Shown piece by piece: positions 10,294-58,266 of a stretch of DNA of 64,000 nucleotides; within the stretch, counting starts at the first letter, position 1; each line of letters opens with the position of its first letter. Location of the stretch: contig NZ_QSDR01000013.1 in assembly GCF_003464085.1 (NCBI RefSeq), positions 1 to 64,000 on the forward strand, written 5' to 3'. The DNA comes from Clostridium sp. AM58-1XD. Its GTDB lineage: Bacteria > Bacillota > Clostridia > Lachnospirales > Lachnospiraceae. The notes under the pieces are model-generated. The model ran no database searches. It was not told the origin of the DNA and saw nothing but the letters and a program-made list of their open reading frames with translations. Made by a program: the position numbers and the translations under genes.

Positions 10294-11306
10294 TTAATTT
10301 ACGGTCTCATCTACATTGTCCTTATCGATAATCAGCATCTTAGTGACGACTCGCTCTTCTACCTCTTCCCCATTGACGATTTTAGCTGCTGCCGCAACCG
10401 CCTGATATCCCTGATCGTATGGGACTAAATCACAGGAAAATGCCAGCTTGTCGTCCCGGATTGCGGTACGCGCATCTGCGTTTCCATCACACCCACCTAC
10501 AATAATCTGATCTGACCTTCCTGCAGCCGCGATCGCCTCCACACATCCAAGAGCCATCTCATCATTGATAGCATAAACTCCCTGTACATCCGGATGGGCC
10601 TGAAGCAGGTTCTGCATCACTTCCATGGCCTTTGCCCTGTTCATATCTCCCGACTGGGAAGCGACAATCTCCATGTCCGGATAGCTTTCGATAACTTCCC
10701 TGGCTCCTCCGATCCGGTCAATTGAGTTCTGCGCACCTGTGACGCCTTCTATCAGAATTACCTTTCCTTTATAGCCCATTTTCTTTGCCAGTGCTTCACC
10801 GCAGGCACGTCCGACTTCCCAGTTCTCACATGCCACATAACTTTCCCATATGGTATCCTGCTGTTGATCGCCGTATTGAGTATGACAATGGGAATATTTG
10901 CGTCATAAGCTTTCTGCACTGCCGGTACGATGCCGATGGAGTCAGACGGAAAAACAATTAGGGCGTCACATTCACCGCTGGCTACCGCCTGTTCTGTCAG
11001 CTGCATTAGTTCCTCATTATTATCCCCCTGGACAGGAGTAAGAATCGTCAGATTCAGGTCGTTATCCTTCCCAGCCTGTTCCGCCCCCTCTTTCACCGTG
11101 ACACAGAATGGATTAATCAGATTTTTAAGTACGAGCGTTACATTACGGCCTCCTTCTGACGGTTTTGCCTCCTTTTCCGTATCCTGCGCAGATGTGCCGG
11201 CAGGCTGAGAATCAGCAGCGGATGACGATTTCCCGGAATTGGAACAGGCCGAGAGCGTCACAACCATGGTTATGCATAAAGCAGCGGTCATCACGTTTCT
11301 TTTCAT
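10294..11306 (-). pseudogene. Sugar ABC transporter binding protein, copy 2 (frameshifted)
   Basis: A lipoprotein (signal peptide ending LSACSN) of the Peripla_BP_4 type, closely similar along its length to the neighbour at 11377-12426. The frame breaks near 10858-10862: the first frame reads NTAINS and then diverges, while the next frame resumes DTIWESYVACENW, matching IWETFVACKDW in the paralogue. Adding one base, for example a C giving AGCCAGG, restores a 337-residue protein. It starts at ATG 11306 with AAGGAGG upstream. It is the last gene of the ABC operon. It is either a decayed duplicate or intact with a sequencing error; the second is favoured because the same kind of deletion recurs in this window. 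Confidence 0.85.
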
Positions 11307-46275: not shown

Positions 46276-46952
46276 TATGCTTCCTTCCCCTTGATATTCC
46301 TTGAAACCGTTATTTCCTGATTGTCAATATGCTCTCTCATCAGTTCCTTTGCTTCGGCCACCTTCCGGTCCCTTACAGCCTTCAAAATGCGCTCGTGTTC
46401 ACTTAAAAGTATCTGCCTCTTATCCGCGTCCTTCACATACTCCAGACGGTAACGGTACATCTGCTCACGCAGATTATTGAGAAGCTGAATCAGGCGCACA
46501 TTTCCCGTCCCCTGGTAAATAATATCGTGATAGTGTTCATCTGCCTCTGCAATTTCCATCGGCTCTCCGCCTTCTACTGCACGGCCGAACTGAGTATTGG
46601 CATCCGAAAGTTCACGGATTTCATCCGCAGACATACGCTCACACGCCAGTTCGATCGCCAGTTCTTCCATGGCCCGGCGTACTTCCAGTACGTCCCTCAA
46701 ACTCTTTTCGGAAATTTTAGCGACTTCGGCTCCCTTTCTTGGAATCATAAGTACGAGTCCTTCCAGCTCAAGTTTTCTGATCGCTTCTCGAATCGGCGTA
46801 CGGCTCACACCAAGACGGTCTGCCAGCTGAATCTCCATAAGCCTTTCTCCCGGTGCCAGTTCCCCTTTTAATATTGCCTGGCGCAGCGTATTAAAAACCA
46901 CATCTCTCAGCGGAAGATATTCATTCATCGTCACTTTTAAGTTATATTCCAT
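46275..46952 (-). CDS. GntR-family (FCD) regulator
   Basis: A 225-residue FadR-type regulator. The winged helix (GERLMEIQLADRLGVSRTPIREAIRKLELEGL) is followed by an FCD ligand domain with a metal-type His pattern (ADEHYHDIIY, SEHERILKA, MREHIDNQE). ATG at 46952 has AGGAGG upstream and lies inside the 3' end of ispE (11-base overlap); a longer frame to 47045 is unsupported. Coupled to ispE and to the small acidic gene; its regulon is unclear. Confidence 0.93.
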   Translation of the reverse strand: MEYNLKVTMNEYLPLRDVVFNTLRQAILKGELAPGERLMEIQLADRLGVSRTPIREAIRKLELEGLVLMIPRKGAEVAKISEKSLRDVLEVRRAMEELAIELACERMSADEIRELSDANTQFGRAVEGGEPMEIAEADEHYHDIIYQGTGNVRLIQLLNNLREQMYRYRLEYVKDADKRQILLSEHERILKAVRDRKVAEAKELMREHIDNQEITVSRNIKGKEA

Positions 46953-47849
46953 TGCCGGAAACCTCCTTGTTATTGTAAAAATTCGTAAGATAAACCTGCT
47001 TGGCCATCTCCGCAGACTGTCCGTAACGCAGTTCCTCATAAGCATTCTCCGCCGCGGCAGGACTTGTAAACAGGCCGAAAACTGTCGGGCCGCTTCCGCT
47101 CATCATGGCGTTAACAGCTCCCATTCCTTTCATCTTATCTTTTATTTCCTTTATTACCGGATACTCCTTTTCCGTGACCGTCTCAAGAACATTTCCAAAT
47201 CGCTCTGCAACTCCATAAAGATCCTGGTTTCGTATCGCCTGAATCATTCCGTCAATATCCGGATGCTGCTCTTTTTTCAGCTCATTTGCATGAAGGTTTT
47301 CATAAACAAATTTAGTCGAGACACTGATTGCCGGCTTCGCAATCAGAATCTGACACTGCGGCATCGGCGGCAGCGGAGTGAGTATTTCTCCAATCCCTTC
47401 CGAAAGAGCCGTTCCGCGCATCAGACAATATGGAACATCGGCGCCGATCTTCACGCCTCGTTCCATCAGGTCTCTCATGGACAGTCCCAGGCTGAACATC
47501 TTGTTGACGCCGAACAGGACTGCTGCCGCATCACTGCTGCCCCCGGCCATTCCTGCCGCAACCGGAATAAACTTTCTGAGTTTTATCATTACGCCCTTTT
47601 TAATTCCGAATTCTTCCATTAAAAGCTGCGCCGCTTTATAAACAAGATTGTTTTCATTGCATGGCAGATAATAGAGATTCGTTTCAACTTCAATTCCAGG
47701 CTCGTCCTCAGAATCAGATCAATCCTGTCATATATTCCGACTGTCTGCATGATCATTTTCACTTCGTGATAGCCGTCTTCTCTTCTCCTGAGGACATCGA
47801 GACCCAGATTGATCTTTCCATATGCCTTCAGATTCAGGTGGTGTATCAT
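46942..47849 (-). pseudogene. ispE: 4-diphosphocytidyl-2-C-methylerythritol kinase (frameshifted)
   Basis: GHMP kinase of the MEP isoprenoid pathway. The N-terminal frame has [23 protein letters not shown] and diverges after IDLILRT. The next frame continues [31 protein letters not shown] and holds the GHMP loop PVAAGMAGGSSDAA and the C-terminal MSGSGPTVFGLF. One extra C near 47700 (GCCTGG to GCCCTGG) restores 302 residues, the normal length. Because IspE should be essential here, an assembly error is the likelier cause. Confidence 0.9.
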
Positions 47850-51036: not shown

Positions 51037-51534
51037 TTAAAATGCCAAAATAAAAAGTGCTATAACCAGTCCGACCACCATGCCAATGACTGAGACCAAA
51101 TAACTTTTTTTCAACAGTTCTACAGCTTCTGTCGTATCAGAAGCCTTTTTTACTTTACTGATACAAATCATACTGTAAACACTGGCCGGCCATAGAAAGA
51201 ATAAGCAGATAACAGCCAAAAACCAGGCTCCTCCCGTACGAATCACTGGTTCGGCCGGTACCGGAACCGTTGGCTTTATCTTCTGCTTCGGAGATGGATT
51301 TTCCTTTTTCTCCAGCTTGATCTCCGGTTCTTTACCCGGCTGCTTTACCGGATCTATCTTTTGCACCTGCGGCATCCGGTGCCCGCAGTTCGGACAGAAA
51401 ATCTGCTCTCCGTCTACCCTGGTACCACAGTAAGCACATGTATTCTCTTCCACACTCCTCACGGGAGCGCCGCATTCCGGGCAGAAGCCTTCCGAGTTAC
51501 TCAGACCTGCGCCGCAGTTTGGACAATAGATCAT
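51037..51534 (-). CDS. Zinc-ribbon membrane protein of the dynamin operon
   Basis: A 165-residue protein. Two zinc-ribbon units lie at the N terminus (CPNCG, CPECG, then CAYCG, CPNCG). A charged, Lys/Pro-rich linker (about 60-100) leads to a C-terminal membrane part with two helices (AWFLAVICLFFLWPASVYSMICI and SVIGMVVGLVIALFILAF). This layout fits a small cytosolic sensor or adaptor tethered to the membrane. It is the last gene of the operon, 30 bases after the third dynamin gene. Function unknown. Confidence 0.85.
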   Translation of the reverse strand: MIYCPNCGAGLSNSEGFCPECGAPVRSVEENTCAYCGTRVDGEQIFCPNCGHRMPQVQKIDPVKQPGKEPEIKLEKKENPSPKQKIKPTVPVPAEPVIRTGGAWFLAVICLFFLWPASVYSMICISKVKKASDTTEAVELLKKSYLVSVIGMVVGLVIALFILAF

Positions 51535-51564
51535 ACCCTAACCTCCTATATTAATAATTTCTCC

Positions 51565-53307
51565 TTACATCTCCATTTGGGCCAGTATGGATCGGATCTT
51601 GCCAATTGCCTCTCTCGTCTCTTCCTTTTTTGCTTCATCCTGACGCGCAACCATTGCAGACTGCTCCACCTGCTGCTGTGCTGCAAGAATTTTATCCCCG
51701 TAATATTCCGCCAGTTGTTTTATTACGTTTTCGGCCATCGTTCGGTAAGTATTTTCGATTGCCTGCTGCACGGATATATGCAAGTTCGTGTATTGAACCT
51801 GAATTGACTTGATAATATCAGGTGTTTTATCAGACATCTCCTTCTGCCGCATGGCTCCTGCAATTCCATCAGCAACCAGGCTGAAAAGTCCCAGGCTGTC
51901 AATTTTTGAAACTACAAAACTGACATTGTCCCCCATTGTCCATGTCTTATTGTCTAAAGCAAAGCGAAAGCCATATGCTGTATTTTGTGCATTTTTCGAA
52001 AGGCTGTACGTAAGTTCACTGGATATTTCATCCAAAGCGTCATACAGAATGACCGTATGATAATCTGTACAGCGGGTAATTGCCTCCTGCATCATATCGA
52101 TGCAATAAAACGAATAGTATTTTGTCAGATCCTTGGCTTCCACATCTGAGAGTGTACTGACATCTTCCTGCATTCGATTAAGAAGCTCCTCTATCCACTC
52201 ATATGTTTCGGACTGCATAACCTGAATCATACCGTCAATTCTGCTCTCCGTCTCCGACTGCTGTTTCATCTGCTGTATTTTCTGCTCACTGACCCTTTCT
52301 ATGGCGGCCTGCACATCCTGACTGCTCATAATCAGACCATTTTCCAGTGCGGCCAGATCGTCAGCCAGGTCAACCAGCATTCCGCGAAGCATACGCTGCA
52401 TGCGGTCAGGCAGAATCACGTCTTTCTTGTCCTGTACCAGCCTGGTTATCTGTGATCGGAAGCCATCAAAGTTCCTCCCCAGCAGTTCTTCCATTCTGAC
52501 ATTCGGCCGTTCCTCTCCCGTCTGGCGGCAGCGCTCATCCAAAGCGCTTACCATCCACGGTTCCTGGGCAGGAAGCAGCCCGTGAATTCGCTCTTCCAGC
52601 ATTTGTTTCATGCGCTCATATTCCTTTTCATTGGAAAGGACATCCGCATAGTTGCCAATCAGAAATAAGTCTGTATATTTCTGCGGAAGGATGACCGTTT
52701 TAAGAAACATCTGCTCTGCCTGTGACAGCGGATAATTTACAGAAAACAGATAGACAACTGCATCTGCCTGACATAATGCCTGCTCCACCATATCAGTAAA
52801 ATCCTTCATGGAATCGCCTAAACCTGGCGTATCAATAATCGTAACATACCGGAGCAGCTCAATCGGACGTTTGATTTCCAGCTGCCGTACAGGCTCCCCT
52901 GCCTGGCTGATCAGCTCTTCCAGACGGTCACGTTCCATCTCCTCATCGGACAGGCGCATCCGCCGGCCGCCGGAAAGAATTGCTTCATTGGAATGTGCCC
53001 CATAACTGATTTTATTCAGCGTGACTGTTTCTGTCGTTACATTGGTGGTAACTACTTCCTCTCCCAGCAATGCATTAATAAGGCTGGATTTTCCCCGTTT
53101 GAACTCGCCGCATACAACCACTGTAAACGGGTCCTCTTTACGATTACGGATATTCTGTTCCCATCTGGACAGCTTGCTGATAAACGGGTCTCCCAGAAGA
53201 GCGCGGTACTTGCTGTCAAACTGAAACATCTTTAATTTGTCCAGTTCGCTTTCTATCCTCCGTATCATTTCTTCCGGATCATATATAATGCGGTCCTGCA
53301 TCTCCAT
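51565..53307 (-). CDS. Dynamin-like GTPase 3
   Basis: A 580-residue dynamin-family protein. GTPase motifs: GEFKRGKS (P-loop, 67-74), a switch I threonine in TTNVTTETVTLNK, and DTPGLGDS (159-166). The G4 position reads IGNYADV, a weak match to NKxD. Residues 300-560 are helical and coiled-coil-rich, with a hydrophobic patch near LGLFSLVADGIAGAM that could touch membrane. Encoded 12 bases after the M48 protease. Bacterial dynamin-like proteins bend, tether or repair membranes; the exact role here is unknown. Confidence 0.88.
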   Translation of the reverse strand: MEMQDRIIYDPEEMIRRIESELDKLKMFQFDSKYRALLGDPFISKLSRWEQNIRNRKEDPFTVVVCGEFKRGKSSLINALLGEEVVTTNVTTETVTLNKISYGAHSNEAILSGGRRMRLSDEEMERDRLEELISQAGEPVRQLEIKRPIELLRYVTIIDTPGLGDSMKDFTDMVEQALCQADAVVYLFSVNYPLSQAEQMFLKTVILPQKYTDLFLIGNYADVLSNEKEYERMKQMLEERIHGLLPAQEPWMVSALDERCRQTGEERPNVRMEELLGRNFDGFRSQITRLVQDKKDVILPDRMQRMLRGMLVDLADDLAALENGLIMSSQDVQAAIERVSEQKIQQMKQQSETESRIDGMIQVMQSETYEWIEELLNRMQEDVSTLSDVEAKDLTKYYSFYCIDMMQEAITRCTDYHTVILYDALDEISSELTYSLSKNAQNTAYGFRFALDNKTWTMGDNVSFVVSKIDSLGLFSLVADGIAGAMRQKEMSDKTPDIIKSIQVQYTNLHISVQQAIENTYRTMAENVIKQLAEYYGDKILAAQQQVEQSAMVARQDEAKKEETREAIGKIRSILAQMEM

Positions 53308-53319
53308 TCCTCAGCCCTC

Positions 53320-54294
53320 CTATCCCTCTTTTGCTACGTCGACGAATCTCCGGCAGCGCTCATCCGTTTCTTCCTTGGAACGCATGATCTGCCCAGGCTG
53401 CATTAGTTCCGGACGCCACCGGTAGAACACCTCGCATTCGATAAACTCCATCTCTGCAACAATCCTTCGCACCGAAGTGGGATGATCATAAAGTAGTTCA
53501 TTAAATTTAGTGAGATTACCCATCTGCATATCCAGCTGCTTTCTAAGCGCTTCATAATTCACTGTATGTTCTCCGAGTGCTGCACCATACATCAGTTTGG
53601 CATTTACCTGATAGGCATCCTCCGGCTTGTCACAGCAGATCAGGCCAGCACGGTCGCATGTGACTTCAGCCGCACGGCTCCATGCGTTCAGAGCAATTCT
53701 GCTTCCCATCGTCAGAAGGGCCATCAGTTGTGTAGATATAATTCCAGTCGCAGCAATCCCTACGTTCAGCAAGATATTACTCAGCATGGAATACACGGAG
53801 TGCTGATTATGTATATGACCGCACTCGTGTCCGATCACGCACCGCAGCTCTCCCGGTGTAAAACGTTCATAAAGGCCGCTGTGAATAACGATCAGCGGCT
53901 CAATATCGTCCGTTGCAATCGTATACGCGTTTATGGAAAGATCATTTATAATATAGATATTCGGAATACCGATTCCCAGAGTCCTGGCGCAGTCGCAGCC
54001 AATCTGATAGACCTCCGGGAACTGATCCGGACCGACAATAAGCCCATCCATGTTGATCACCTGAAGCGTCCGGCTCGCATAGGTCGCACATATCTTCTTG
54101 GCAATGCTGTAAAAGTGCGGAATTGCGTCCAGCTTTCTGCGGCATTCATAGTCAAAAGCAAAGGCATAATCCGGCAGTCCGTTGCCTGACAGACGCCTGC
54201 TTTCCATTGCCTTTCGACGCGCCATGTAATCTCTGAAACTGTAGTCCATCCCCTGCAGAGGAGATGATGTACTCGAATCCATGAAATCATTCAT
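53320..54294 (-). CDS. M48-family zinc metalloprotease of the dynamin operon
   Basis: A 324-residue Ste24/HtpX-clan peptidase. The zinc site is HECGH (156-160) with the third ligand Glu210 in SRAAEVTCDRAG, the standard M48 arrangement. Hydrophobic helices follow the active site (about 172-205), but the N-terminal helices of HtpX are missing, so the enzyme is probably cytosolic or peripheral. ATG at 54294 with GGAGG upstream is preferred over an in-frame GTG at 54321. It lies between the second and third dynamin genes with gaps of 19 and 12 bases, so it should act with them, perhaps cutting them or damaged membrane proteins. Confidence 0.9.
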   Translation of the reverse strand: MNDFMDSSTSSPLQGMDYSFRDYMARRKAMESRRLSGNGLPDYAFAFDYECRRKLDAIPHFYSIAKKICATYASRTLQVINMDGLIVGPDQFPEVYQIGCDCARTLGIGIPNIYIINDLSINAYTIATDDIEPLIVIHSGLYERFTPGELRCVIGHECGHIHNQHSVYSMLSNILLNVGIAATGIISTQLMALLTMGSRIALNAWSRAAEVTCDRAGLICCDKPEDAYQVNAKLMYGAALGEHTVNYEALRKQLDMQMGNLTKFNELLYDHPTSVRRIVAEMEFIECEVFYRWRPELMQPGQIMRSKEETDERCRRFVDVAKEG

Positions 54295-54313
54295 TTTCAG
54301 TTCCTCCAGTCTG

Positions 54314-56361
54314 TCAGGCACTTTCCAAGACCTGGCGCACCTTCATATTCAACGGCTTCAGGTTTTCCAGAATCTGCTTCACGGTAGCAACGATCTCGTC
54401 GCATTCTGCTGCCATTTGTTTCCGCTGCAGTTCATTTCTGGTCAAATCCTTTTTAATATTGTCCATCGTGCTTTCCGTATCATTGAGCATTTTCTCACAC
54501 TCTTCCTCCATACTTGCGGTCAGCTCATTAAACCGGATCTCCACACGCTGGTGTACCCAGTTTTCCAGTTCTCGCTTTGCCTGCATTTCCACAATCATCT
54601 GTTTCATATTGTCTCTTATTTCTCTGCGCAGTTCTTCCAGTTTTCTCTTTCCAGAATCTCTGGCAAACAGTTTGCTTGTGAAATGCTTACTGACAGCCGT
54701 GCCGGTAGCACAGCTGATAATCAGCATTGGCAGTCCTACAATCGACATTGAACCCAGAATCGCGGCTACCGTAAGGTTGCTACAAGCCCTACGCCGCCCC
54801 CTGCAAGCGCGCCCTTTACCCCCGCCTCCCTGTATCCTGCAACAATTCCGCCAATTCCATATATCCCCATGAAATCTGTCAGCACATCGACTCCTGTTCC
54901 TATTAAATTAGTCTTGTCTAGACCTTTTCTATTTTCAGTTATGCTGTTTCGGAATGCGTCCATCTGTGTAGAAATTTCCTGAGTAAACTCGCCCAGGCGA
55001 ACGGCCTCTTTTCCTACGATATCCTGAAGCTGCAATTCGATCTTTTCGGAAAGAAGAGACATCGACGATCTCATTTCATCGGAAACTGCTTTCTGCAGCT
55101 TTTCCGCCGCTGCTTTCTTTCCCCCATCGCTGGACAGCGTCGTCACATCAATCGGAGTGTTCTCCAGCTTTGCAGCCAGTTTTGCCTCCAATTCCGAGTA
55201 GAACTGACTGACTTGGGGAATCAGCTTATTCTTTGCATTCGTCGCACTGGATGAAAGGCGCCGCTTTTCTTCCTGTTTTTTCTTTCTCATTTCCCCTATC
55301 TTTGCCAGCGCCTCTTTCTGATGTTTTTCAAATTCCTCAGCATCTAATTCGAGAGCTTTCTTCCGTGTTTCCGCAGCCTTTATCACTTCCAGGGACGTGC
55401 GCTGAATCAGATTCAGCGGAGTTCCAAGCTCCAGAGCGCCTCTCTCTTCGGTCAGCATCTTAGTCAGCGCCTCTTCGAAAGGCAGCGTACCGCTCTCTTC
55501 AATCAGCTTCTGGTCGCCGGTCATCTTCCCGTCCAAAGCATCCAGCGCTGAAAATGGATAAATCCGAATGTTTCCCATCTTAAATTCAGAATCCTTATAT
55601 TTTTCAGAATCTTTTCCATACAGCTCTGCCATTTTATCCAGCACGCTTCTCTGTATTTTTTCCCGTATCCCCTGTACCACACGTTCCCGGTCTGCAGCCC
55701 TTCGTATTGTATCAATCTTATTAACAAGAAAAATCAGACGCCCCAGGTCACTGGCCATAAGCTTGCTGCGCACAAATTCAGCTTCGGACATACTGAATGG
55801 ATTGTCAGGAGTAATAACCATGATCACAGCATCCAGCTTGGGAATCACCTCTTCCGTAACACGGTTCATTCTTTCGTCATCATTCAGTCCCGGCGTGTCG
55901 ACGATGTCGACGCCGTTCTGGCAGAATCTGCAGGGATAATATACCACTGCCTCTTCCACTTGTGAAGCGCGCGCTTCATTTTCACCCGTCAGCTTCGTTA
56001 CATAACCGGCCAGATCATCTATGGATATATTCTTGATGGAGTTATCTTTCATCAGAAGCTCTACATGTGGCTGCATATCATAAGTCACTCTGTTCATCGT
56101 AGCAGAACATGGCAGTATATCGGCAGGCATAATTTCCTTTTCCAGCATAGAATTGATTACCGTGCTCTTTCCCCTCTTGAATTCTCCCATAATTCCTACG
56201 GCAAATTTATGCTCCGCCAGTTTCTCCCTGCTCTTCTCCAGGGATTTCTTGTTCTCATCCAGCTCCATTCTGCCGCAGATTTTCTCCATCTGCACCATGC
56301 TCGTATTAACCTGGGCTACCATGTTCTGATAATTCGTATAGCTTGCGTTACCATGCTCCAT
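54314..56361 (-). pseudogene. Dynamin-like GTPase 2 (frameshifted)
   Basis: A dynamin-family protein with the cleanest GTPase of the three: GEFKRGKS (59-66), DTPGLNDDE (155 on) and NKID (214-217). The first frame stops after GGGVGLVATLR; the next frame continues LTVAAILGSMSIVGLPMLII and a coiled-coil tail to 54314. One extra C near 54777 (AACCTTA to AACCCTTA) gives 682 residues with an intact hydrophobic hairpin, the paddle-like membrane segment of bacterial dynamins and mitofusins. Starts at ATG 56361 inside the end of dynamin 1. Probably intact in the cell. Confidence 0.87.
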
Positions 56362-58156
56362 TTGTATCTCTCCTTTCACCCCTGATCTCCTCGTCGAACC
56401 TCACTTTCAGGCGGTCGTTATCCTGCAAAAGCTGATCTAGTTGTAATCGCAGCTCCTTTCCTGCCAGATGATCTGCACATGCCTGTAATTCCCTGATACG
56501 TCCGTTTGCCCGATTGTAAAGAATGACTACTATTTCCTCCAGTTTATCGCCTGCCTTTCCGCACGTGTATTCCAGTCTGCCTGCTATTTTCCCTTTTTTT
56601 CTGATGTTGAAGTCCTCCATCGACTGATCAGCCGCCCGTTCAATCCACATAATAATGTCACTGTTCAGAAGCTGGTTTCTCGGCGGCAATGGAGAATAGG
56701 TCCATTCAAACATTACGCCGTTATCATCTTTTAGATATATGGTTTTTTCATCAGGCAAACGTTCCAGCCGATCATTTACTTCTCTGAACATTTCCCCCTC
56801 AGGCCTAAGCAAAGTCTGCAGCGCTCTGGATATATCAGTCAACAGATATCTTGTCTGCTCTGCATAATACTGGTCCAGCCATGGATCCAATTCTCTTTTA
56901 ATCCTGTCATTCACGTACTTTTGTGTTTCATCCATCTGCTGCACCAGCGCATTTTCCAGTGTTAGGACGTCAAGAGTCCTTATTTTAGACAGCTGTAAAA
57001 TAAAATCTTTTTTTATTTTCTCTCTGACCGTACAAAAGTCATTCACTTTTCCATACATCTTTACTCTCGCTTCATCCATCATGGTTTCAGCCATGCCATA
57101 GCTTAATTTCGCAAAATCCGCTTTTTTATTTTCCATGTATTTTATCTGGTTGGTAATCGAAGTGTGGAGAATTGGAAGCATACTACGATACTTTGAAGCG
57201 GTCTGTTCGATTGTCTTCATCGACTTCATTACAGAACTGCTATTCTGGCTGTTCAGTATCAGCTGAGGCAGTCTTCTGTTCAGCCTTTTAAACCCGCTCT
57301 CCTCAAAGCGTTCATCATCATTGAACTCCCTTGCCTCCAGCGCGTCCAGCGAGGATACGGCAAAAATCTCAAGTTTCGGAAAAATCGTCTCATATTTATC
57401 AAATACAGGATCCCCTTCATCATGAGTCTCTTTCAGCTTATCTAGAACCTTTTCCTTAATCCTCTCTGTCAGATAGGTGATCAGGCGCTCCCTGTCTCTC
57501 TTGCGGACCAGATCGATATAAGTGATCACAACTACGATCTGGCAAATCTCCGAATTTTCCACCAGCTGTGCCATAAAACTGCTTTCCGTATCACTAAAAG
57601 GCAGATTAGCAGATATTGCTACGATAGCCAAATCAATTTTCTCCAGTTGGGATACTGTCACCTGATTCATAACATCATCATCATTCATTCCAGGAGTATC
57701 AATCAAATCCACGTAGTTCTGGCAAAAAATAGACGGATACTCCACCACTGCCTCTTCAATCTGGGCCGCGTTCCCCATCGCTTCTTCTGTCAGCTTCGTC
57801 ACATAATCAGATAAATTCTCAATTCCTACCTCCTGCTCTCTGCCGTCTTTATAGCGCAGGCAGGCTTTGGGAACTGAACCATATGTAATGCGGTTAATTG
57901 TCGCTGTAGTAGGATTTGCATCCGCCGGTAGAATTTCTCTGCCCAGCAGCGCATTGATAAAACTTGTTTTTCCCCTTTTGAATTCTCCAACAACCGCAAC
58001 ACGGAATCTTCTTGTTTTAATTCTGTCCCGTTCCTCTTCTACACGGTTCTGCCATTTTCCGATCTCAGGGAGAAATTTTTCTCCCTTCAGTTCCTGGCGC
58101 AGTTTAATCAGATATTCATATATCTGAAAGTCATAATCCTTATAATCAATTGCCAT
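56348..58156 (-). CDS. Dynamin-like GTPase 1
   Basis: A 602-residue dynamin-family protein, first gene of the five-gene operon. GTPase motifs: GEFKRGKT (57-64), a switch I threonine in NPTTATINRITYG, and DTPGMNDDD (153 on). The G4 site reads ITYID in place of NKxD, so nucleotide specificity may differ. The rest is helical with no obvious membrane hairpin, so it may need dynamin 2 for membrane contact. Its 3' end overlaps the start of dynamin 2 by 14 bases. Two tandem promoters lie upstream. Confidence 0.88.
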   Translation of the reverse strand: MAIDYKDYDFQIYEYLIKLRQELKGEKFLPEIGKWQNRVEEERDRIKTRRFRVAVVGEFKRGKTSFINALLGREILPADANPTTATINRITYGSVPKACLRYKDGREQEVGIENLSDYVTKLTEEAMGNAAQIEEAVVEYPSIFCQNYVDLIDTPGMNDDDVMNQVTVSQLEKIDLAIVAISANLPFSDTESSFMAQLVENSEICQIVVVITYIDLVRKRDRERLITYLTERIKEKVLDKLKETHDEGDPVFDKYETIFPKLEIFAVSSLDALEAREFNDDERFEESGFKRLNRRLPQLILNSQNSSSVMKSMKTIEQTASKYRSMLPILHTSITNQIKYMENKKADFAKLSYGMAETMMDEARVKMYGKVNDFCTVREKIKKDFILQLSKIRTLDVLTLENALVQQMDETQKYVNDRIKRELDPWLDQYYAEQTRYLLTDISRALQTLLRPEGEMFREVNDRLERLPDEKTIYLKDDNGVMFEWTYSPLPPRNQLLNSDIIMWIERAADQSMEDFNIRKKGKIAGRLEYTCGKAGDKLEEIVVILYNRANGRIRELQACADHLAGKELRLQLDQLLQDNDRLKVRFDEEIRGERRDTNGAW

Positions 58157-58237: not shown

Positions 58238-58266
58238 ATTATAACAATCAGCCTTCTTTATTTCAA
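58238..58266 (-). promoter_or_regulatory. Dynamin operon promoter P2 (proximal)
   Basis: Minus strand TTGAAA (58261-58266), 17-base spacer, TATAAT (58238-58243), about 80 bases before the first dynamin gene. Confidence 0.75.

Follow-up and report, generated by a model that had tools for sequence, protein, structure and literature searches.

A recurring bacterial gene unit of three dynamin-like GTPases, an M48 metalloprotease and zinc-ribbon proteins looks like a membrane-alarm or self-defence machine

Introduction

What may a bacterium gain from encoding three dynamin-like GTPases around a metalloprotease? The question is raised by a stretch of 64,000 nucleotides from Clostridium sp. AM58-1XD (contig NZ_QSDR01000013.1, positions 1 to 64,000; hereafter the window), in which five genes follow each other on the minus strand in the order DLP1, DLP2, M48, DLP3 and zinc-ribbon gene, DLP standing for dynamin-like protein. 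Accounts of bacterial dynamins usually present them as pairs whose use is uncertain. Most of their genes are paired in operons (PMC6104087), and DynA delays the lysis that follows phage infection (PMC9950537, a review). Pairs of GTPases with zinc ribbons make up predicted conflict systems (PMC7159879), and proteins combining a double zinc ribbon with transmembrane segments belong to a ydjFGHI-type PspA operon of Bacillus (PMC11237479).

An initial annotation of the window, made from the sequence alone, had proposed a membrane surveillance or repair machine built on these five genes. We report here that DLP1, DLP2, M48 and DLP3 form a recurring unit with similar trees, in which zinc-ribbon proteins are often present. 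The component families are known; their combination is undescribed as far as we searched, and it looks like a membrane-alarm or self-defence machine. Judging from gene content and sequence, we favour a role in stress defence by membrane-triggered and GTPase-gated proteolysis, most likely as cell-autonomous immunity, and give this reading a probability of about 0.45.

Results

The dynamin and M48 genes recur together

One genome per species was scanned for M48. Of the 366 relatives obtained, the best 80 loci were examined, a sample that favours close kin and consists mostly of metagenome-assembled genomes; two loci carry doubtful labels, L065 and L009, the second of which is near-identical to L010. 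DLP genes beside M48 were detected by six-frame profile searches. The initial annotation had staked its reading on the genes staying together in other genomes, and they do: a DLP on the same strand adjoins M48 in all 80 loci. DLPs flank it on both sides in 63, and the 17 one-sided cases divide into 10 with a DLP downstream only and 7 with a DLP on one side and a contig edge opposite. In the loci of Myxococcota type (L070, L071, L073-L080), a single DLP was seen beside M48 in the available DNA, and five of these loci share an FHA-like protein family (FHA recognised by eye).

Loci of remote M48 proteases (E value of 1e-38 or weaker) served as controls. A DLP was absent from 33 of 34, and none had a DLP pair, over flanks whose shorter side measures 1.2 kb or more for 28 loci and less for 6. 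The exception, L133, from a genome of the cyanobacterial order, shows adjoining weak DLP2 matches in two pieces on one side, and is perhaps another M48-dynamin pairing. When the control method was applied to close M48 loci, flanking DLPs were found in 7 of 7; these seven, from the genomes sampled for distribution, seem for the most part to repeat members of the 80 and show only that the method detects DLPs.

Tree distances were correlated over 60 loci, with r values of 0.69 for M48-DLP2, 0.84 for M48-DLP3 and 0.82 for DLP2-DLP3; DLP1 against each of the other three gave 0.51-0.62 (45 loci). None of 1000 label shuffles reached any of the observed correlations. Among 34 well-supported splits of the M48 tree, 28 recurred in the DLP3 tree and 20 in the DLP2 tree. 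Mere chance neighbourhood, with no system behind it, could appeal to the flanking genes of most loci, which are only ordinary ones, and has next to no probability in view of the flanking DLPs, the similar trees and the control loci; a chance operon was rejected on co-occurrence and controls.

One dynamin carries a hydrophobic tip and all three keep their GTPase motifs

All three proteins belong to the dynamin superfamily, having a Dynamin_N domain with G1, G3 and the G4 Asp. G1 and G3 are kept across the families, and wherever the alignment covers G4 its Asp does not vary. Hydrophobic segments were found in 61 of 61 DLP2 sequences (two or more in 26); 34 of 44 DLP1 and 49 of 60 DLP3 sequences have none. 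The initial annotation had described a hairpin in DLP2 only, degenerate G4 sites in dynamins 1 and 3, and hence a hetero-complex with one membrane-inserting member. The first statement is broadly true. The second overread the motif, since only 30 of 63 DLP2 rows have the G4 Lys and the solved NpBDLP1 has NAWD at this position in the alignment. What stands of the third is a unit with one hydrophobic-tip dynamin and two that mostly lack the tip; the defective-partner G4 falls away. DLP1 and DLP3 as defective GTPases were rejected, as their G1, G3 and G4 Asp motifs are kept.

The nearest solved relative of DLP2 by sequence is NpBDLP1 (2j68, E value of 4.2e-27). NpBDLP1 being the same gene as a cluster DLP was also rejected: two DLPs in L059, the Goleter cluster, match it at only about 113 bits. 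DLP1 is less conserved than DLP3, with a mean column identity of 28% against 41% in the family alignments. In the DLP3 tip, W-T-x-x-D is near-invariant and one stretch is mildly hydrophobic. The predicted structure of DLP3 (mean pLDDT 80, pTM 0.64) has as best Foldseek matches BDLP, IniA, the Cj-DLPs and mitofusins; in this model the fold is a GTPase with a long helical stalk, as expected of a dynamin.

DLP2 had been taken for one open gene, and a break of its frame at 54748-54766, within the hydrophobic tip of this record, was overlooked. Its relatives are single open frames of about 680 amino acids (aa), intact copies being common; the sole 100% identical entry among the matches listed is 531 aa long and apparently comes from the window's own contig (P0121). 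Further genes of the window look split, namely a sugar-binding-like protein in two frames (10294-11306) and an ispE-like gene (46942-47619), shortened and without a start as judged by eye. A sequencing error is therefore plausible for the DLP2 break, though not proven.

The M48 protein has HExxH and the distal Glu ligand in 63 of 63 alignment rows. That of the window is 80% identical to the M48 of an uncultured Lachnospiraceae bacterium (L001). A structural search with its model matched just the protease core and barely covered the 56 N-terminal residues. Assignment to HtpX was rejected, with a best score of 48.5 bits against a cut-off of 355 (NCBIfam HtpX equivalogs).

Zinc ribbons often accompany the unit and are fused to a dynamin in some cyanobacteria

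In 43 of the 80 clusters, zinc-ribbon-pattern genes are present within the cluster or next to it, and 4 more clusters have the ribbon fused to a DLP. The count relies on the CxxC pattern, so that chance matches and spurious frames are possible in it; 33 loci had none, including the one-dynamin type and short contigs. A family is nevertheless apparent, with 59 similar zinc-ribbon open reading frames (ORFs) in 40 loci, all on the strand of the cluster. Gene order elsewhere departs in part from that of the window, the zinc-ribbon genes often standing between DLP1 and DLP2. In the four fusions (L057, L058, L059 and L062), the ribbon ends a DLP that lies upstream of DLP2; by profile, this ribbon-bearing DLP is closer to DLP2 than to DLP1. 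The fusions are the clearest sign that zinc ribbons may work with the dynamins.

The unit is rare and scattered

High-scoring M48 was found in two Firmicutes families, in 3 of 200 genomes of the first and 1 of 200 of the second, and in 3 of 195 genomes of a cyanobacterial order, counts that include the centre genomes (Lachnoclostridium An131, Fischerella thermalis, Pseudoflavonifractor An569). This rare, patchy presence had escaped the earlier reading. Hosts occur here and there among gut Firmicutes, cyanobacteria and a small number of other bacteria, Myxococcales included. A metagenome-assembled Fibrimonadales genome (L053) groups inside the Firmicutes loci, which suggests transfer, provided its label is correct. 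Relatives of the DHH gene next to the operon in the window are present in 37 of 150 genomes; in a comparison of 30 DHH loci (flanks of up to about 1.5 kb), one weak MATE match and no other searched window gene was found, and no empty site could thus be established. That the unit is accessory and horizontally scattered is the best explanation for its distribution.

One record bears more directly on mobility. MT836781 (L199), an 8.8-kb contig from human faeces filed as phage and marked 'UNVERIFIED', carries DLP2-M48-DLP3 together with genes for a PemK-type toxin, an HTH_17 protein and, beside the unit, a tyrosine integrase. The contig has the look of an integrating element, the alternative being that the sample contained bacterial DNA.

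Many cyanobacteria and Myxococcales differentiate, and their presence among the hosts would suit a role in cell division or development like that of Streptomyces DynA/DynB. Absence of the unit from about 98-99% of the sampled genomes in three groups, and the many hosts that are gut anaerobes, make such a role very improbable.

Signalling, cell-death and immunity-type genes adjoin some loci

Neighbour ORFs were called mechanically, spurious antisense frames included. Near-duplicates (L004, L009, L015) were removed, and so were ORFs below 180 aa and zinc-ribbon ORFs below 330 aa; 225 of the 261 remaining were scanned, the 36 others being 34 of L058-L065 and two long antisense ORFs. Flanking genes vary from locus to locus. 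Protein kinases account for 8 of the 225 (5/114 and 3/111), with about 0.4 expected from a count of 93 over 62.2 Mb in 19 of the genomes; this control is rough, and the loci are non-independent, L016 contributing two. L016 has a kinase, a PP2C and a trypsin-FHA gene by domain, and a vWA-like gene by group tally and reading; L019 has PP2C, vWA and trypsin-FHA genes, with a kinase match on presumably the same contig. In both, the signalling genes are lodged between DLP3 and DLP1. Kinase-NACHT proteins are encoded at L016 and L034, an nSTAND1 gene and a gene with sub-threshold SLATT/SLOG matches at L051, and a PDC-S37 defence-candidate gene about 3 kb downstream at L050.

Histidine kinase genes adjoin 7 scanned clusters (L001-L003, L033, L038, L043, L045), in two distant branches of the M48 tree; 3 of the 7 were also scanned for a response regulator. 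Five of these kinases have 5-6 transmembrane-like segments. In some genomes the unit appears to be connected with signalling by kinase/PP2C/vWA/FHA genes or by a membrane histidine kinase.

A caspase-dynamin fusion adjoins DLP2 in the cyanobacterial locus L057 (L057:4742-6967). Caspase and dynamin domains occur together in 12 of 120 listed matches (of 3084), the query's own entry included, and several of these two-domain relatives are near 1000 aa. Two of these, besides that of L057, are apparently paired with proteins scoring 839-842 bits to DLP2, compared with 849 for L057's own DLP2, and the pairing thus seems to recur. The initial annotation, which viewed the window only, had overlooked these signalling, cell-death and immunity-type neighbours.

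Such neighbours matter for a homeostatic reading, in which a stress-activated M48 would clip the dynamins and halt membrane fusion or repair, with no immune role. In mitochondria the M48 protease OMA1 is coupled with a dynamin GTPase, OPA1, which it cleaves as membrane potential falls (PMC8027119). An M48 gene flanked by dynamin genes with similar trees fits this scheme, as do the adjoining histidine kinases. Yet the unit is rare and patchy even within families, unlike housekeeping genes, and caspase-dynamin companions and NACHT or nSTAND neighbours occur at some loci. No cleavage site was identified. OMA1 is moreover an inner-membrane protein (PMC8027119), whereas the cluster M48 has no clear transmembrane pair, and the present unit differs in being a gene cluster with three dynamins. 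We regard homeostasis of this kind as a minority possibility, doubtful as it stands.

What the unit may do

Under the GTPase-gated proteolysis that we favour, the hydrophobic tip of DLP2 would insert into the cytoplasmic membrane, and DLP2 would hetero-oligomerise with DLP1 and DLP3 as in paired bacterial dynamins. Zinc-ribbon proteins, or the DLP-fused zinc ribbon in some cyanobacteria, would have a recruiting or sensing role. When the membrane is damaged, by phage or in some other attack on the envelope, the GTPase assembly would change, and the altered assembly would release or present the M48 protease. The protease might then cut the DLPs, which would switch fusion off, or a different protein of the host, leading to dormancy or death. 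If true, dynamins would gain a testable job, that of reporting damage to the membrane and converting it to proteolysis, and OMA1-OPA1, like immune assemblies driven by GTPases, would have a bacterial parallel that is genetically tractable in simple hosts.

Several observations weigh against this proposal. The action of M48 on or through the DLPs is suggested by adjacency and similar trees, and common descent of whole genomes contributes to the tree correlations, which were compared without a housekeeping-gene control. Most loci, the window included, have ordinary neighbours. Strong defence-gene matches were few among the 225 neighbours (one PDC-S37 and one PDC-S01), and most other PADLOC matches look like general kinase or ATPase matches. 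Only one of 50,697 phage records contained a relative, scans of IMG/VR gave none, and plasmids yielded only remote M48s, in nine records.

Carriage by plasmids or viruses as a rule was rejected on these scans together with a near-identity plasmid search, which was empty. No DLP lay beside the plasmid M48s in the stretches of three of the nine records that were read. In one, a Thermus thermophilus plasmid (L196), the remote M48 lies near a Swt1-HEPN/DUF499 gene and an HNH gene, with no DLP in the stretch.

A bolder version of the proteolysis scheme would make the unit a dynamin-based counterpart of the inflammasome: a hetero-dynamin coat inserted in the membrane would sense the breach of the envelope during phage attack, and GTP-driven assembly would unleash M48 and abortive infection, a caspase joining M48 in some cyanobacterial variants. 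Such a system would form a class of its own, new to bacterial immunity, and the dynamin-protease coupling of mitochondria would have a prokaryotic parallel; this version is speculative, and we grant it a minority share of belief.

Comparison with known systems

No already characterised homologous cluster turned up in the literature searched, as the initial annotation had supposed. Dynamins and M48 in one bacterial system were not described there either, few subscription journals being covered. A unit like this cluster is undescribed in the parts of PMC6104087, PMC9950537, PMC7159879, PMC11237479 and PMC8027119 drawn on here, and the word 'dynamin' is absent from the main text of PMC8195603. 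Against PADLOC 2023, M48 and the zinc-ribbon protein had no match at an E value of 0.01, and the DLPs had remote LeoA/LeoBC matches only.

Paired bacterial dynamins (Nostoc BDLP1/2, Campylobacter Cj-DLP1/2, IniA/C, DynA) resemble the cluster in Dynamin_N, tandem genes and a hydrophobic-tip member. They differ from its three DLPs with M48 and zinc ribbons, and the solved members are only remotely similar.

Eleos/LeoABC is likewise a multi-dynamin operon, to whose LeoA and LeoBC models DLP2 and DLP3 show remote matches. Scores to NCBIfam DLP_LeoA_gen were 41.9 bits for DLP2 and 24.8 for DLP1, below its cut-off of 325, DLP3 not being listed. A vesicle or secretion machine of the LeoABC kind, in which dynamins would shape or shed membrane and M48 mature a cargo, could draw on this similarity, and on the reduced release of periplasmic and outer-membrane markers upon loss of leoAB in E. 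coli (PMC4159319). The main text of that paper mentions no protease, by word count, whereas the cluster has M48. No cargo or secretion gene was recognised by eye among the families common to at least 4 loci. The hosts include Firmicutes that lack an outer membrane, a further point against such a machine. We consider it unlikely.

Conflict systems with DO-GTPases and GAP1 (Kaur et al. 2020, PMC7159879) share with the cluster paired GTPases, zinc ribbons, transmembrane components and, for some, peptidase-type effectors. They differ in that the cluster GTPases match Dynamin_N, and dynamins are unnamed in the main text of that paper. GAP1 had no match in the Pfam scan of ten window proteins, in which no GAP1 model was run by name. 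Pfam includes GAP1 models. The EACC1-caspase systems of the same paper (PMC7159879) recall the cyanobacterial caspase-dynamin companion, several caspase relatives of which are NCBI-named 'caspase, EACC1-associated type'. They differ in that the caspase of the cluster is confined to a cyanobacterial subset; the EACC1 gene was not searched for.

The operon in the window

The five close-packed minus-strand genes were all found as initially annotated, apart from the frame break in DLP2 (Table 1), with three Dynamin_N domains, Peptidase_M48 and zinc ribbons by Pfam. DLP1 and DLP2 overlap by 32 bases, and M48 overlaps the end of DLP2 by 8 bases; an alternative start of M48, an ATG at 54294, would leave a 19-base gap after DLP2 and give the 324 aa of database entry P0001. 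The remaining intergenic gaps are of 12 and 30 bases. Four CxxC motifs are present in the zinc-ribbon protein, and two segments at its C-terminal end are strongly hydrophobic (hydropathy maxima of 2.97 and 2.12), in keeping with the membrane protein announced. As for the tandem promoters, one is a good match; the second is weak (9/12 positions, 58304-58275), and the number of promoter-like sites in the region is 14, with 12.6 expected.

Table 1. Features of the operon and its upstream region (window positions)
Feature	Position	Strand	Evidence
DLP1, 602-aa dynamin-like GTPase without hydrophobic hairpin	56348..58156	-	Pfam Dynamin_N, E 1.6e-28
DLP2, N-terminal part: GTPase domain and start of hydrophobic tip	54766..56379	-	Dynamin_N, E 6.4e-25
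DLP2, C-terminal part in a different frame: remaining hydrophobic tip and stalk	54314..54748	-	no Pfam match alone
M48-family metalloprotease, HECGH and AEVTCDR motifs, no clear transmembrane pair	53320..54321	-	Peptidase_M48, E 9.2e-22
DLP3, 580-aa dynamin-like GTPase, hairpin-free tip	51565..53307	-	Dynamin_N, E 2.3e-22
Double zinc-ribbon protein, two C-terminal hydrophobic segments	51037..51534	-	Pfam Zn_ribbon_3 / DZR; hydropathy
Possible operon promoter, TTGAAA-17-TATAAT, TG before -10	58238..58266	-	11/12 consensus positions; consensus match only

The neighbours of the operon in the window are ordinary, a MATE transporter, a DHH-type protein (by eye) and GntR. Farther away, at 291-1982, a 563-aa protein has an HtrA/trypsin-like C-terminal domain, and also matches the RT-Protease_XI models of PADLOC.

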